Source: Gemmatimonadota bacterium (GTDB taxonomy: Bacteria; Gemmatimonadota; Gemmatimonadetes; Gemmatimonadales; Gemmatimonadaceae). Taken from it: DNA of 64,000 nt. Below are positions 31,655 through 38,102 of the stretch, in pieces. The stretch is taken from the NCBI GenBank assembly GCA_028287305.1, contig JAQBPX010000002.1, positions 186,001 to 250,000 on the forward strand. The letters are read 5' to 3'. The position numbers and the translations under genes are program-made. Within the stretch, counting starts at the first letter, position 1; the number at the start of each line of letters is the position of its first letter. Under the pieces are notes generated by a model. It ran no database searches. It was not told the DNA's origin and saw nothing but the letters and a program-made list of their open reading frames with translations.

Positions 31655-31673
31655 GGGGCTGAGGACTACGACG

Positions 31674-31708
31674 ACGCGGGCCCGGGACGCTGAGTCCCGG
31701 GCCCGCGT
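31674..31708. terminator. Bidirectional terminator in a nested inverted repeat
   Basis: acgcgggcccggga (31674-31687) pairs perfectly with tcccgggcccgcgt (31695-31708) with a 7-base loop, followed on the plus strand by tcctttctcctc. It is flanked by a second, wider imperfect repeat: ctcgggagctgaggggctgag on the left against an inverted ctcgggagctggggggctggg on the right, reaching about 31750. It separates the convergent EF-G2 and KamA genes. Confidence 0.75.
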
Positions 31709-31752
31709 TCCTTTCTCCTCAATTCCCCAGCCCCCCAGCTCCCGAGCCCCTG

Positions 31753-32889
31753 CTACTCGTTCCCCGCCTTCCTCCGCTTCGGGCTCGCCTTTCGCGCGGC
31801 GCGCATCGGGAGCACCTGCGGCTCCGCCGCGGGCACCGTGATCACCGGCTGCTTGTAGACGTAGCGCTCGCCGGCGTAGTTGCGGAACACCACCTCGTCC
31901 TCGTTCATCGACTCCACGTATTCCGGCAGCAGCGGCACCTTGCCCCCGCCCCCGGGCGCGTCGATCACGAAGTGCGGCACCGCCATGCCGCTCGTCCAGC
32001 CGCGCAGCGCCTGGATGATCTCGATCCCCTTCTGCACCGTGGTGCGGAAGTGCTCGCCGCCCGCGACCTGGTCCGCCATGTACAGGTAGTACGGCTTCAC
32101 GCGCGCCCGCAGGAGCTTCTGCATCAGCTCCTTCATGATCGCCGGGTCGTCGTTGATGCCGCGCAGCAGCACGGTGTGCGCGCCCAGCGGGATCCCCGCA
32201 TTCGCCAGCCGGCCGAGCGCCGCCACGGTGTCGGGCGTGAGCTCGCTCGGGTGGTTGAAGTGCGTGTTCATGTAGATGGGGTGGTACTTCTGCACCATCT
32301 CGCAGAACTCGGGGGTGATCCGCTCCGGCAGGTGCGCGGTGATGCGGCTGCCGATGCGGATGATCTCCACGTGCGGAATGGCGCGCAGCCGCTGGAAGAC
32401 GTACTCCAGCCCCCGGTCGCTCAGCATCATGTGGTCGCCACCCGAGAGGATCACGTCACGCACCTCCGGGTGCGCCGCGATGTAGTCGAACGCCGAGTCG
32501 TACTGGTTGAGCGGAATCTTCTCGGGGTCGCCCACCTTGCGGCGTCGCGTGCAGAAGCGGCAGTAGCTCGCGCACACGGGGCTCACCAGGAAGAGCACGC
32601 GGTCGGGATACCGGTGCGTGATGTTCGGCACCGGCGAGTCGCCATCCTCGTCGAGCGAGTCGATCACGCCGTCCACCACGTCCAGCTCCTGCGTGCTCGG
32701 GATGTATTGCTGCCACGCCGAGTCGCCCACTTCCTTGATCTGCTCGAGGATCTGCGGGGTGATCCGCATCTGGAAGTTCTCGAACGCGGGCTTCAGCGCC
32801 TCGACGTCGATCTGGTCGCGGCCGAACTTCTCCGCGAGCTTGTCGAGGCTGTCGACACTTCCGTGCAGGACTCGCTGCCAGTCACTCAT
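31753..32889 (-). CDS. kamA: KamA-family lysine 2,3-aminomutase (radical SAM, PLP)
   Basis: A 378-residue radical-SAM enzyme that converts L-lysine to L-beta-lysine. The cluster motif is C106-x3-C110-x2-C113 followed by TRRRK. The PLP Lys is K317 in DAPGGGGK. Two Asp residues known in clostridial lysine 2,3-aminomutase to hold substrate lysine correspond to D273 (YLYMADQ) and D310, and both are present, so lysine is the likely substrate. The length fits KamA rather than the shorter EpmB. Its start overlaps the GNAT stop by 4 bases (ATGA). It is the last gene of a four-gene operon with two ATP-grasp ligases. It ends in a basic, disordered tail. Confidence 0.93.
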   Translation of the reverse strand: MSDWQRVLHGSVDSLDKLAEKFGRDQIDVEALKPAFENFQMRITPQILEQIKEVGDSAWQQYIPSTQELDVVDGVIDSLDEDGDSPVPNITHRYPDRVLFLVSPVCASYCRFCTRRRKVGDPEKIPLNQYDSAFDYIAAHPEVRDVILSGGDHMMLSDRGLEYVFQRLRAIPHVEIIRIGSRITAHLPERITPEFCEMVQKYHPIYMNTHFNHPSELTPDTVAALGRLANAGIPLGAHTVLLRGINDDPAIMKELMQKLLRARVKPYYLYMADQVAGGEHFRTTVQKGIEIIQALRGWTSGMAVPHFVIDAPGGGGKVPLLPEYVESMNEDEVVFRNYAGERYVYKQPVITVPAAEPQVLPMRAARKASPKRRKAGNE

Positions 32890-33386
32890 GACCTGTGGCT
32901 CCGCGTCAGGCGGGTGAACACGACCCGGTCGTCACCGGGCGCGTAGAAATCGGTGAGGCGCGCCTGCTCGGCGTATCCCAGCCGCTCGTAGAACGTGCGG
33001 GTGTTGCTGTAGTCGTCGCGCGACGAGGTCTCGATGGCGACCAGCCGCCCCTCGCGCTTCACGATCTCCTGCTCCGCGGCGCGCAGCAGCGCCGCGCCGG
33101 CGCCGGCGCCCTGGGCGTCGGGATGCACGGCGATCCAGTAGAGGTCCCAGCTGCGGTCGGTCTCCGGGGTGGGGCCGAATGCCGCATAGCCGATGAGCGC
33201 GTCGTCCGTTCGCGCGGCAACCAGCAGGTAGTCGGGATCGGGGTCCGCGCGCTGCGCGGCGGCGAGCGCATCGTCCACCACTTCCAGCGCGACGTCGACC
33301 TCGCTCTCGCTGAACGCACGCGTCGCCCTGAGGAGCGACTCGACCGCGGGGCGATCGGCGTGCACGAGGGGACCGACGTCTATCAT
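32886..33386 (-). CDS. GNAT-family N-acetyltransferase
   Basis: A 166-residue GNAT protein. The acetyl-CoA loop is AVHPDAQGAGAGAALLRAAEQE (motif A), preceded by the strand DLYWI and followed by AIETSSRDDYSNTRTFYERLGYAEQARLTDFYAPGDD (motif B, with the conserved Tyr). The partner KamA suggests the substrate could be beta-lysine or a derivative. In the known N-epsilon-acetyl-beta-lysine pathway the partner is AblB, but AblB is clearly longer, so this is not simply AblB. The start is 4 bases from the upstream ligase stop and its end overlaps kamA, so all are co-translated. Confidence 0.85.
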   Translation of the reverse strand: MIDVGPLVHADRPAVESLLRATRAFSESEVDVALEVVDDALAAAQRADPDPDYLLVAARTDDALIGYAAFGPTPETDRSWDLYWIAVHPDAQGAGAGAALLRAAEQEIVKREGRLVAIETSSRDDYSNTRTFYERLGYAEQARLTDFYAPGDDRVVFTRLTRSHRS

Positions 33387-33390
33387 CACG

Positions 33391-34455
33391 TCAGGGCTCC
33401 GGTGCCACGAACAGCTCTGGCTCGCCGCTGGGCAGCGCCACTCCAGACAGCCGTTGCGACTCGTCCCAGCGCGCGCCCGCTTCGCGGCGCGCGCGGTCGC
33501 GCGCCAGCCCCAGCTCACACACGGTGCGGATCATGGCCCCGTACTCGATGCCTGCCACGCGCGCCATGCGCGCCAGGCCGGCGTCGGGGGAGATGTCGGG
33601 ATTCGCGTTCACCTCGAGGATCCACGGCTTCCCCTCGGCGTCGATGCGCATGTCCACGCGGCCGTAGCCGTGCCCGCCCACGATCTTCCACGCCGCGAGC
33701 GCCGTGCGGCGCACCTCGGCGGCGAGCCGGGCCGAAAGGGGAGCGGGGCACTGCGGCAGCGCGCCGAGGTCCTCGTCGGAGCCCTCCTCCCACTTGGAGC
33801 GGTAGGTGATGATGCGCCACTTGCCGCGCGGCATGCCGCTGAAGTCGATCTCGGCGATCGGCAGCACCTGGTCGCCGAGCACGCCCACGTTCACCTCGCG
33901 CCCGTCGATGTAGCGCTGGACGATCACCTCGTCCCACCGCTCGAGCATCGCTTCCAGGCGATCGCCGAGTGCGCGCGTGGTGCGCACCACCGAACGCTGC
34001 TCGATGCCGATGGAGGCATCTTCCGCCGCCGGCTTGCAGATGGCCGGGAACCCCACGCCGGGTGTGAGCTTGCCGCCGGGGCGGATGGTCGCGAAGCGCG
34101 GCACCGGCAGCCCCGACTTCTCCAGCAGCGAGTTCACCACGTGCTTGCGGAGGCAGAGCGCCGTGGTGGCGCTCGAGCTGCCGGTGTACGGGATGCCGAA
34201 GAGCTCGAGCACCGCGATCACCGCCGGCTCGAGCGCGGCGACTCCGTCCACGCCCTCGCACATGTTGAACACGAGGTCCACCTGGGCGCGGCGCAGCTTC
34301 TCGATCCACTTGCCGTCGGGGTGGACCGCGATGCGCAGCACCGCATTGCCTTCCGCGACGAGTGCCGCCTGGATGGCGTCGACCGTACCGAGGATCAGCT
34401 GGTCGGGTACCGTCGCGAACGCCGAGGCGCCGTCGAACAGGATGGCGACCTTCAA
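33391..34455 (-). CDS. D-Ala-D-Ala ligase-like ATP-grasp enzyme (second of pair)
   Basis: A 354-residue ATP-grasp ligase related to Ddl. N-terminal Rossmann-like part (MKVAILFDGASAFATVPDQ; VDLVFNMCEGVDG), ATP-binding strands (GFPAICKPAAEDASIGI; EVIVQRYIDGREVNVGVLG) and the Mg site YGRVDMRIDAEGKPWILEVNANP. The start is TTG (34455-34453), which overlaps the stop of the preceding gene as TTGA; frame and homology leave no better start. Enzymes like this join an acyl-phosphate to an amino group. Two tandem copies beside KamA suggest peptide-bond formation with beta-lysine rather than cell-wall D-Ala-D-Ala synthesis. Confidence 0.87.
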   Translation of the reverse strand: MKVAILFDGASAFATVPDQLILGTVDAIQAALVAEGNAVLRIAVHPDGKWIEKLRRAQVDLVFNMCEGVDGVAALEPAVIAVLELFGIPYTGSSSATTALCLRKHVVNSLLEKSGLPVPRFATIRPGGKLTPGVGFPAICKPAAEDASIGIEQRSVVRTTRALGDRLEAMLERWDEVIVQRYIDGREVNVGVLGDQVLPIAEIDFSGMPRGKWRIITYRSKWEEGSDEDLGALPQCPAPLSARLAAEVRRTALAAWKIVGGHGYGRVDMRIDAEGKPWILEVNANPDISPDAGLARMARVAGIEYGAMIRTVCELGLARDRARREAGARWDESQRLSGVALPSGEPELFVAPEP

Positions 34456-35558
34456 ACTGCGATCCCCAGGCGCTCGGCGGCGTGCCGGGCGCAGCGCTGG
34501 ATCAGGGAGTCGTAGTCGATGCCGGCGGCGCGTGCGGCCTTGGGCAGGCACGAGTTGTCGGCGGGATTGGGCAGGATTCCGGGCAGGGGATTGATCTCGA
34601 CCACGAGCGGATTTCCCGCGGCGTCCAGCCGCACGTCCACGCGCGACCAGTCGCGGCAGCCCACGGCGCGGTAGGCATCGAGCGCGACACCGGCCACTCG
34701 GCGCGCAAGCGCGTCGGGGATGCGAGCCGGGCACTCGAAGATCTCGAGCGGATTCTCGGGTTGGTCCCAGATCCACTTGGCCTCGAAGCCATAGATCGGG
34801 AGGGCGCCCTTCGGCAGCGCGGCGAAGTTCAGGGCGACCAGCGGCAGCACCTCGGCCTGGGCGCCGTTGCCGAGAATTCCGCAGGTGAATTCCGCGCCCG
34901 GAAGGAATTCCTCCACGAGCACGGGCTGCGCGTAGCGCGCGAGCAGCCAGCTGCCCTGGGCGAGCAGCTCCTCGCGCGAACTGACGAAGTTCCGCTCCGT
35001 GATCCCCTTGGACGAGCCTTCCTGCGACGGCTTGAGGAAGAGCGGAAAGGGGAGGGCCACGTCGCGCAGCTGGGCCTCCGTCTCCACGAGGGCGAAGCGC
35101 GCGGTGGGAATCCCGGTGGCGGCCAGGAACTGCTTGGTGCGCGCCTTGTCGAGGCAGAGCGAGAGGGTGAACGGGTCGCTGGCGGAGTAGGGCACGCCGA
35201 GGAACTCGCAGATCGCCGGGACGTGGGCCTCGCGGTTCGGCCCGTAGAGTCCCTCGGCGATGTTGAAGACGAGGTCCGGACGCTCGCGTCGCAGGCGCTC
35301 GGGAAAGTGCTCGTCCGCCTCGAGGCGGATCACGTCACCGAGCGGGGCGAGCGCGGCGGCAACGGCATCGATGGTCTCGATCGTGTCCCACTCGGCGAAC
35401 GCGTCGTCCACGAGCTGGGGCGCCGTCGCCAGGGCCACGCCGTCACGACGTGCGCCTCGACTGGGAGGCTCGTCGTCGGCGTCCGTGTCGAGCGCCGCGG
35501 TGGGCGCGCTGACGGAGAGCTCGGGCTTCTGGTTGTAGGCGAGGGCGATGCGCGTCAT
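34452..35558 (-). CDS. D-Ala-D-Ala ligase-like ATP-grasp enzyme (first of pair)
   Basis: A 368-residue Ddl-related ATP-grasp enzyme and the first gene of the operon. It has RPDLVFNIAEG, the GVPYSASDPFTLSLCLDKARTK region, KPSQEGSSKGI (ATP-binding loop, close to the KPxxEGSSxG of Ddl), VLVEEFLPGAEFTCGILG and DWSRVDVRLDAAGNPLVVEINPLPGILP (Mg-binding E-x-N, close to Ddl). Residues 12-45 are an acidic, disordered insertion (TDADDEPPSRGARRDG) not usual in Ddl. It is more Ddl-like than its partner, from which it has clearly diverged. A promoter candidate lies 47 bases upstream. Confidence 0.88.
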   Translation of the reverse strand: MTRIALAYNQKPELSVSAPTAALDTDADDEPPSRGARRDGVALATAPQLVDDAFAEWDTIETIDAVAAALAPLGDVIRLEADEHFPERLRRERPDLVFNIAEGLYGPNREAHVPAICEFLGVPYSASDPFTLSLCLDKARTKQFLAATGIPTARFALVETEAQLRDVALPFPLFLKPSQEGSSKGITERNFVSSREELLAQGSWLLARYAQPVLVEEFLPGAEFTCGILGNGAQAEVLPLVALNFAALPKGALPIYGFEAKWIWDQPENPLEIFECPARIPDALARRVAGVALDAYRAVGCRDWSRVDVRLDAAGNPLVVEINPLPGILPNPADNSCLPKAARAAGIDYDSLIQRCARHAAERLGIAV

Positions 35559-35604
35559 GCAGTGTGACGGCGGGGCAATTCAGGTGCCAATCAGGATGCG
35601 CGGC

Positions 35605-35633
35605 AAGATAGGAAAATTTATTTGGTATCGCAA
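35605..35633 (-). promoter_or_regulatory. Candidate sigma70-type promoter of the ligase-KamA operon
   Basis: On the minus strand, TTGCGA (35633-35628), a 17-base AT-rich spacer and TATCTT (35610-35605) match the -35/-10 layout (four of six bases each). This is one of the few AT-rich patches in the window. It sits just after the thyX stop and leaves a leader of about 45 bases before the first ATP-grasp ATG, so the operon need not depend on thyX transcription. Confidence 0.5.
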
Positions 35634-35649: not shown

Positions 35650-36405
35650 TCAGACCTTGTGGTATCCCACGCGCGCCGCCTCGCGACGATCCTCGGCGAC
35701 GTAGACCTCGAAGTCCGAGAAGAACGCCGGCGCTTCCTGCTGCAGCACGCGCAGCACCATCACCGCCATGCGGCGAATTTCCTGCTCCGCGCCCTCGCCC
35801 GAGCGGAGCTCGAGCATCGTGCGCCAGGCGCGCGCATTCCCGGTGACCACGATCTTGGTCTCGGTGGAATTGGGCAGCACGCCGCGCGCCGCCTCGCGCG
35901 CCATCTTCCGGCGATGGACCTTGTCGGTGACCCATCCGTACCGATCCATCAGCTGCTCCACCAGCGCGACGTAGGCCGCCTGCGCGCCTTCGATCTGCGA
36001 GCGCCAGGCCGTCTCGAGCGCCTCGTCGCCGATGATGGCGGGCGGCACCACGAAGCTCGCCTTGGATTCGTCCACGTAGCGCTGTGACAGCTGCGAGTAG
36101 GCGAACCCGGCGCGGTGACGCACGAGCTCGTGGGTGAGCGAGCGGCTGATCCCCTCGATCAGCAGCGAGTAGTTCGCGTGCTCGAGCACGCTGCCGTGGC
36201 CCTGCTTCTTGATGTTCTCGAGGTACTCGCGCGTCTCGCGCTTCGCCGGATTGTGCTGGCTCATGTAGCAGAGGCGCCCGGCGAATTCGGCCAGGCGCTC
36301 GCCGTCGGTGCCCTCACCCATCCACTCCACGGGCAGGTGCCCGGGCGTCGCGAAGGAGGGGCGCGAGAGGACGGTGACGACGGGGTCGGTGTAGAACTGC
36401 GGCAT
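35650..36405 (-). CDS. thyX: FAD-dependent thymidylate synthase ThyX
   Basis: A 251-residue flavoprotein that methylates dUMP to dTMP using methylene-tetrahydrofolate and NADPH. The ThyX motif is R96-H-R98 followed by S107 (RHR-x8-S form, AGFAYSQLSQRY). Other family parts are GHGSVLEHANYSLLIEG and TGNARAWRTMLELRSGEGAEQEIR. No thyA is in the window. It has its own start 38 bases downstream of the FAD oxidase stop on the same strand, so it may be transcribed with it. Confidence 0.96.
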   Translation of the reverse strand: MPQFYTDPVVTVLSRPSFATPGHLPVEWMGEGTDGERLAEFAGRLCYMSQHNPAKRETREYLENIKKQGHGSVLEHANYSLLIEGISRSLTHELVRHRAGFAYSQLSQRYVDESKASFVVPPAIIGDEALETAWRSQIEGAQAAYVALVEQLMDRYGWVTDKVHRRKMAREAARGVLPNSTETKIVVTGNARAWRTMLELRSGEGAEQEIRRMAVMVLRVLQQEAPAFFSDFEVYVAEDRREAARVGYHKV

Positions 36406-36443
36406 GAGTGCTGGGCTCGGGGCGGGCGGCGCGCGCGACGGGG

Positions 36444-38102
36444 CTACGCCGGGGTGACCAAACTTACCTCTTCCTCGGCCAGCAACTCCAGCCTAGGCCG
36501 ATCATAGGCACGATCGCGCTCGATGCGGGCGAGCACGCGACGCGCGGCATCGGGCAGGGCGGCGAGCGACGGGTCGTACTTCACCGCGCCGATCGAGCTG
36601 GCGGTGCCGGCCGGAACCTTTACGCCAGGATTGAGGATCCCCGCCGGGTCGAAGGCGTGCTTGACGCTCGCGAACCGCGCGATGACGTCGGGAGTCCACA
36701 CGCGACCGAGGAGCGGGGTGCGGAGGCGGCCGTCGCCGTGCTCCCCGGTGAGCGTCCCACCCAGGCGGGCCGCGAGGGAGGTCACGTCATCGAGCAGCGC
36801 GACCACGCGCTCACGCCAGTCTGCGCGCGAGAGGTCCACCAGCGGATTCACGTGGACGTGCGCGTCGCCCGCGTGGCCGAAGATCACGCCGCGCATCTCC
36901 TGCCGCTCGAGTGCCTGGCGCACGCCCAACACGTACTCGGCCAGCCGCCCCGGGGGCACCGCGCCGTCCTCGACGAACTGCATCGAGCGCAGGGAGGGGT
37001 CGAGGCGAGAGAGGATCGGGCTTGCTGCGTGGCGGAGCTCCCACATCTCGACCTCGGTGTCCGAGTCGAGCGCGAGCGTCACCTGCTCCGCGCCCAGGCG
37101 CGCGAGCTCGGCGCCGAGCGCGGAGGCGCGCGCCGAGGCCTCGGCTGCGGTAGAGCCCTCGACTTCCACGAGCAGCACCGACTCGGCGTCAGCCGGCACG
37201 GGCACGTGCGCGCCACCGTCGCGGGCGACGTCGAGGAAGGTGCGGTCGAGGAGCTCACAGGCAACGGCGCCGGCGTGGCTCGACGCGATGGCGGCGGGCA
37301 CCGCGGCCTGTGACGACCCGAACGCGGCGAGGATGCTGGCGGTGGCCCCGGCCACGGGAATGAGCGAAAGCTCGACGCTCGTGATGAAGGCCAGGCTGCC
37401 CTCGCTCCCCACGATCAGGTCAACCAGGTCGCCGCTGTCGGACCACGCTGCGATGCCGTAGCCCGAGGAGTCCTTGCGCACGCCAGCGTGGACGGATGGG
37501 TCCGTGCGTTCGACTGCCGAGAGTGACGGGGCGACGGTGGTGAGGAATCGCTCCAGCGCGGGGATGCCGTCGGGAGCGGGCACGCCTCGCTCGAGCCGGC
37601 CCGTGGAACCGTCGCCGAAGACGCATTCCACGGCATGCACCCAGCGCCGCACCGAGCCGAAGGCCAGGGTGTGCGCGCCGGCGGCGTTGCAGGCAACCAT
37701 GCCGCCCACCGTGCAGAAGCGGCCGCTGGAGGGATCCACCGGGAAGCGCAGTCCCGACTGCCGGGCTGCGTCGTCCACGTCGTTGCGAAGCGCGCCCGGG
37801 CCCACGCGGATGCGACGGGTTTCGAGGTCCACCGATTCGATCGAACGCCACCTGCTCACGTCCACGATCACGCCGTCGCCCACCGCGCCGCCCGACATGC
37901 TGCTTCCGGAGCCGCGCGGGATGAGCGGGACGTTCGCACCGCTCGCCCATTTCACGAGAAGCGAGAGGTCGCCCACGTCGACGGGGATCGCCACCGCGCG
38001 CGGTTGCACGCGCGCGATCCCCGCGGCCTCGGAATACACCGCGAGCGCCGCGTGATCAGTGCGGAAGGTGCCTCGAAAGCCCTGCGGGGCGAGCAGCGTC
38101 AC
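36444..38102 (-). CDS. FAD-linked oxidase (GlcD/D-lactate dehydrogenase-like)
   Basis: A 552-residue flavin oxidoreductase. The N-terminal PCMH FAD-binding domain has PLIPRGSGSSMSGGAVGDGVIVD and GRFCTVGGMVACNAAGAHTLAFGSVR. The C-terminal FAD-oxidase domain has FGHAGDAHVHVNP and TLTGEHGDGR. This is the set seen in GlcD, D-lactate and D-2-hydroxyglutarate dehydrogenases, which oxidise 2-hydroxy acids and pass electrons to quinone or cytochrome. No 4Fe-4S domain is fused and no glcE/glcF genes are adjacent. The substrate is not determined. The gene starts divergent from the squalene/phytoene synthase. Confidence 0.88.
   Translation of the reverse strand: MTLLAPQGFRGTFRTDHAALAVYSEAAGIARVQPRAVAIPVDVGDLSLLVKWASGANVPLIPRGSGSSMSGGAVGDGVIVDVSRWRSIESVDLETRRIRVGPGALRNDVDDAARQSGLRFPVDPSSGRFCTVGGMVACNAAGAHTLAFGSVRRWVHAVECVFGDGSTGRLERGVPAPDGIPALERFLTTVAPSLSAVERTDPSVHAGVRKDSSGYGIAAWSDSGDLVDLIVGSEGSLAFITSVELSLIPVAGATASILAAFGSSQAAVPAAIASSHAGAVACELLDRTFLDVARDGGAHVPVPADAESVLLVEVEGSTAAEASARASALGAELARLGAEQVTLALDSDTEVEMWELRHAASPILSRLDPSLRSMQFVEDGAVPPGRLAEYVLGVRQALERQEMRGVIFGHAGDAHVHVNPLVDLSRADWRERVVALLDDVTSLAARLGGTLTGEHGDGRLRTPLLGRVWTPDVIARFASVKHAFDPAGILNPGVKVPAGTASSIGAVKYDPSLAALPDAARRVLARIERDRAYDRPRLELLAEEEVSLVTPA

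Follow-up and report, generated by a model that had tools for sequence, protein, structure and literature searches.

A gene set of two Ddl-like ATP-grasp ligases, a GNAT acetyltransferase and a lysine 2,3-aminomutase-like enzyme recurs across bacterial phyla and may serve a route to acetylated beta-lysine amides

Within the 64,000-nucleotide stretch of a Gemmatimonadota genome analyzed here (the window), four consecutive genes encode two Ddl-like ATP-grasp ligases (LigA and LigB), a GNAT acetyltransferase, and a lysine 2,3-aminomutase-like radical SAM enzyme (KamA). Across phyla, these four genes are grouped far beyond chance, and we are highly confident that they act in one pathway. On balance, we favor a dedicated route to an acetylated beta-lysine small peptide or amide, which might serve as a compatible solute. 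The sequence-only reading that preceded this work had proposed an acetylated or ligated beta-lysine product, a view largely supported by the conservation of the set and by the clades that its ligases form, with the product itself being one that we infer. Further, a deacetylase gene, gene fusions, and the co-inheritance of unlinked genes, all beyond what that reading could see, strengthen the case.

The four genes run along the minus strand from 35558 to 31753 in the ORF reading of the window. Specifically, LigA (34452..35558; ATG start, 368 aa) and LigB (33391..34455; TTG start, 354 aa), each with a Dala_Dala_lig_C domain, are followed by the GNAT (32886..33386; ATG start, 166 aa; GNAT in both Pfam and NCBIfam) and by KamA (31753..32889; ATG start, 378 aa; Radical_SAM and LAM_C), and the family names given to all four proteins by the sequence-only reading are confirmed by Pfam and NCBIfam. 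The tight junctions it described also agree with the coordinates, in that the TTG start of LigB lies within the LigA stop (a TTGA overlap), a 4-base gap separates LigB from the GNAT, with an in-frame GTG one codon 5' of the GNAT ATG, and the KamA ATG sits on the GNAT stop (an ATGA overlap). The promoter it placed ahead of the set fared less well. The sequence TTGCGA-17-TATCTT is present (35605..35633, minus strand), but it matches 8 of the 12 sigma-70 consensus positions, and a scan at a threshold of 9/12 returned zero sites, a result not above chance; being under the scan threshold, it is no evidence of a promoter. Because the same strand carries, ahead of LigA, ThyX (35650-36405; 91 bases from LigA) and then an FAD-linked oxidase (36444-38102; 38 bases from ThyX), transcription may begin further upstream. 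These two genes together span 35650-38102 in the window, and their order ahead of the set was seen again in other Gemmatimonadota loci. At the opposite end, an EF-G gene converges on KamA, and a G+C-rich hairpin of 16 pairs between the two genes (31673..31709) is a possible shared transcription end for both, with the hairpin scan giving one site versus 1.4 expected by shuffling, a weak signal that is not above chance.

To place the set more widely, 84,980 species genomes were searched with the GNAT alone, and the best 80 loci were analyzed. These fall in about 11 phyla (at least 10), namely, Gemmatimonadota, Chloroflexota, Planctomycetota, Desulfobacterota, Myxococcota, Verrucomicrobiota/Lentisphaerota, Acidobacteriota, Nitrospirota, Sumerlaeota, Krumholzibacteriota, and Pseudomonadota, of which single placements may be wrong, as nearly all of the loci come from metagenome bins. 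All four genes were present at 41 of the 47 loci that had sufficient flank, and in each of the six remaining genomes KamA was found elsewhere; hence, the grouping first read as an operon in the window is conserved across phyla, and a lack of conservation in every relative, which the sequence-only reading had named as a refuting outcome, was not what we found. Most phyla have the order KamA-LigA-LigB-GNAT, and Gemmatimonadota have LigA-LigB-GNAT-KamA. Recurring neighbors were ThyX and the FAD oxidase in Gemmatimonadota and MarC in Chloroflexota; transporter, nonribosomal peptide synthetase (NRPS), murein, regulator, and resistance genes were absent from the recurring neighbor families, as were the lysine fermentation genes kamDE, kdd, kce, and kal, and no osmotic-stress gene was linked to the set. 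Some loci carry insertions. A small CxxCxxCC (PF03692) protein, perhaps linked to the iron supply of KamA, lies between KamA and LigA or directly before LigA in L080, L093, L115, and L119; a restriction-endonuclease-like gene (PF22558) separates LigB from the GNAT on a Chloroflexota contig (L078:6508-7395); and a 307-aa protein without a Pfam match separates KamA from LigA in a Nitrospirota bin (L086:2507-3430).

The genes are also kept and lost together. Of the 59 relatives compared, almost all from the window's own family or order, 27 encode both KamA and LigA and 29 encode neither, with LigA alone in two and a KamA fragment alone, at a contig edge, in one. In one of the two genomes with LigA alone (G054) the assembly is fragmented, and the other (G010), at 100% estimated completeness, is a real exception that has no KamA in its whole genome. 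There, intact LigA, LigB, and GNAT genes keep the position close to EF-G and ThyX that they have in the window (L126, at G010:C3:98000-112000), and this organism may thus either import beta-lysine or do without it. A separate irregularity was seen in G006, where the intact KamA is followed, ~1.7 kb downstream, by a partial second copy (G006:C8:59425-59916; 65% identity over residues 211-373). In 118 Planctomycetia, KamA and LigA occurred in exactly the same 36 genomes (Fisher 4e-31, a value inflated by shared descent), and they were unlinked in 8 of these 36; in two of the eight, a single contig carries both genes, at distances of 1.8 Mb and 2.7 Mb. That unlinked KamA and LigA are retained and lost jointly argues for a single pathway.

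LigA and LigB belong to the ATP-grasp ligase superfamily by fold and by their ATP/Mg residues. Their AlphaFold models (pLDDT 90.6 and 94.2, respectively) show the Ddl fold and match solved Ddl structures, and both retain the residues corresponding to K97, K144, E187, K215, R255, D257, E270, and N272 of DdlB. Both are nearest to the small-molecule Ddl type. They differ from that family in their separate clades, in scores of 144.9 and 131.9 against the TIGR01205 (Ddl) cut-off of 245.65, and in changed substrate residues. With residues E15, S150, and Y216 of Escherichia coli DdlB as the reference for the D-Ala site, LigB keeps none of the three; S150 is replaced by A/G and Y216 by W in 99 of 99 aligned rows, and the positions of S281 and L282 are mostly Ala and Gly. 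LigA retains Ser/Thr at 150, the EGS(S/T) motif, and a large part of its C-terminal loop, and Y216 is replaced by W/E/R in 97 of 103 rows; its E15 position is not safely alignable, as the profile alignment begins past the N-terminal loop, a region in which LigA has invariant acids of its own, E56 and D58. Judging from these residues, the D-Ala pocket is gone in LigB, as is much of it in LigA. In the trees, the LigA sequences group together with a support of 0.998, and the LigB sequences form a second clade that includes one unlinked paralogue (0.81). The 18 true Ddl sequences lie apart from both, and the two ligases are old clades outside true Ddl. The sequence-only reading had named placement of both ligases inside true Ddl, with the D-Ala site intact, as an outcome that would overturn it, and trees and residues alike show otherwise. 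A true Ddl is encoded separately in the window's genome (L124). That genome also holds a third Ddl-like ATP-grasp gene (L125:3698-5856, contig C21), which is 36% identical to LigB, lies directly 3' of a predicted zinc metallopeptidase-like gene (a weak Peptidase_Mx match), and has orthologues in G012 and G033; it is another ligase system.

KamA, the sole member of its family in the window's genome, has lysine 2,3-aminomutase 2a5h as its nearest solved relative (E 3e-113). The two Asp residues reported earlier as expected for lysine binding are indeed present, as D273 and D310, alongside the PLP lysine K317 and the Fe-S cluster cysteines C106/C110/C113. Both Asp residues and the CxxxCxxC cysteines are kept in all 63 KamA sequences aligned, and the PLP lysine is kept in 61 of them. 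These features argue strongly for the conversion of L-lysine to beta-lysine by KamA, and the Asp pair would also be compatible with arginine or ornithine as the substrate. The score of KamA falls under the cut-off of the AblA equivalog model TIGR03820 (429 versus 525 bits), as do those of KamA from two other phyla (476 and 472). The set resembles the ablAB pathway of methanogens and Pelobacter in pairing a lysine 2,3-aminomutase with a GNAT acetyltransferase that would act after it, and differs from it in a GNAT that is not AblB, a KamA below the AblA cut-off, and two additional conserved ligases. As AblB (TIGR03827) had no match in the window's genome, the earlier view that this is not a simple ablAB pathway holds. 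The same is true of its exclusion of EF-P modification, given that KamA scored 218 bits against the 369-bit cut-off of the EpmB model and that no match to EpmA (genX model) in that genome passed the cut-off. The only EpmA-like match scoring well over the whole model was a full-length LysRS beside prfB.

The best solved relative of the window GNAT is PDB 2r7h from Desulfovibrio (E 9e-29), a "putative D-alanine N-acetyltransferase" for which, to our knowledge, there is no function known beyond its name. Searching 348 Desulfovibrionales genomes with the 2r7h sequence gave matches in 61, and the KamA-LigA-LigB-GNAT set was found at all 15 loci read; at four of the set loci, the GNAT is 66-69% identical to 2r7h, making these its nearest available relatives. 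Such surroundings speak against a GNAT that acts on free D-alanine. LigB and the GNAT are fused into one gene in nine loci. Further, a gene combining a GNAT-like N-terminal domain with a histone-deacetylase domain occurs in 19 of the best 80 loci and is fused with the pathway GNAT in six of those 19, with the frame open throughout. Its catalytic residues are all retained (17 of 17), and four genomes that lack it at the locus have a full-length copy elsewhere. A search of the window's genome found two plain deacetylases, whose open frames span 309 aa and 335 aa, and no GNAT-deacetylase protein, which marks the latter as an accessory gene. Together, the LigB-GNAT fusions and, in some relatives, the GNAT-deacetylase gene link acetylation to the pathway. 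Two further apparent fusions were set aside, as a KamA-deacetylase fusion in L098 proved to be two genes in different reading frames, and a frameshift interrupts the LigB-deacetylase-GNAT chain in L100, which was therefore left out of the count.

From these components, we infer the following route, including its order, partner substrates, and use. KamA would convert L-lysine to beta-lysine, after which LigA and LigB, with their rebuilt pockets, would each activate a carboxylate at the expense of ATP and couple it to an amine, forming one bond apiece and linking beta-lysine to one or two further amino acids. The GNAT would then acetylate either the substrate or the product of LigB at an amino group. 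In some relatives, although not in the window's genome, the GNAT-histone-deacetylase would remove the acetyl group, probably for turnover. A cytosolic solute or stress metabolite is the likely use. The working analogy for the LigB-GNAT fusions is the synthetase of N-acetylglutaminylglutamine amide (NAGGN), an osmolyte that is itself an acetylated dipeptide, in which a GNAT is likewise joined to an ATP-grasp ligase. That enzyme is of a different ligase branch and uses glutamine, where the set would use a beta-amino acid; its model (TIGR03103) gave a weak GNAT hit only (20.5 versus 569 bits), and no NAGGN-type amidotransferase partner was found among the recurring neighbors. Comparative genomics has predicted operons with two linked ATP-grasp ligases and a GNAT, a gene arrangement also seen in the window, and successive ligation with acyl capping was proposed for them (Burroughs et al. 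2015, PMC4431377, which cites an earlier survey), but the ligases described there are of the R2K type and the text mentions no aminomutase or deacetylase. Acetyl-capped beta-lysine is a known compatible solute (PMC1224877, PMC3543383). The set had no PADLOC match that would indicate anti-phage defense.

Several other explanations deserve weighing. LigA and LigB could make a beta-lysine or D-amino-acid dipeptide for the murein stem or cross-link, in the manner of Ddl or Van ligases, an idea in keeping with their Ddl fold, their shared C-terminal domain, and the motif and loop retained in LigA. With a pocket that is absent in LigB and mostly absent in LigA, a genome that has its own true Ddl, no murein genes among the recurring neighbor families, and acetyltransferase and deacetylase partners that fit such a role poorly, we regard this as very unlikely. 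The set is also found in Planctomycetes and Dehalococcoidia, in which murein is reduced or absent. Alternatively, the ligases might attach beta-lysine to a protein, such as a translation factor, as in EF-P beta-lysylation, with acetylation and deacetylation as regulation. The KamA family does lead to beta-lysine, some ATP-grasp enzymes, such as RimK and TTL, act on proteins, and a histone-deacetylase-type enzyme is linked in relatives; we nevertheless consider it unlikely, given that the window's genome lacks EpmA and EpmB, that both ligases are nearest to a small-molecule type, and that no recurrent substrate-protein gene adjoins the set.

A secondary metabolite with a beta-lysine unit, such as an antibiotic or siderophore, seems similarly improbable. 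Streptothricin and viomycin do contain such units, and stand-alone ligases can replace an NRPS, yet the recurring neighbors include no transporter, regulator, NRPS, or resistance genes, and a core set fixed in at least 10 phyla and often unlinked is unlike a mobile cluster. A plainer possibility is that KamA and a non-homologous acetyltransferase make N-epsilon-acetyl-beta-lysine as an osmolyte, with the ligases serving another purpose, since methanogens need no more than KamA and an acetyltransferase to make this solute (Pfluger et al. 2003, as cited in PMC1224877 and PMC3543383). We give it a low probability, because the LigA-KamA co-occurrence, which is without exception in Planctomycetia, and the nine LigB-GNAT fusions place the ligases in the same route. 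The acetylated beta-lysine peptide or amide that we favor has evidence against it as well, specifically, the complete genome estimate of G010 with LigA, LigB, and the GNAT but no KamA, the sub-cut-off AblA scores of the three KamA members scored, the lack of a linked osmotic-stress gene, and the GNAT-deacetylase missing from the window's genome.

The component families, and the linkage of two ATP-grasp ligases with a GNAT, are known. For the KamA-LigA-LigB-GNAT set, with or without the deacetylase, we found no description in the open full-text papers searched, and the sequence-only reading had likewise not recognized a described pathway with this exact set, although the ATP-grasp amidoligase survey of Iyer et al. 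2009 may list it. About half of the near relatives of the window's genome, about 30% of the Planctomycetia sample, and, judged by the GNAT, about a sixth of Desulfovibrionales genomes carry the set, for which we found no named product. It would account for the role of many genes annotated as "D-Ala-D-Ala ligase," "D-alanine N-acetyltransferase," and "lysine 2,3-aminomutase," and it cautions against assigning genes so annotated to the cell wall or to lysine degradation. Desulfovibrio, which is culturable and for which genetic methods exist, is a direct place to seek the product. More speculatively, the set could represent a very widespread and hitherto undescribed class of small beta-peptides made without a ribosome or NRPS. 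An acetyltransferase and an enzyme of the histone-deacetylase type would switch their charge, and they may act as a common solute, redox, or signaling metabolite in many little-studied phyla.
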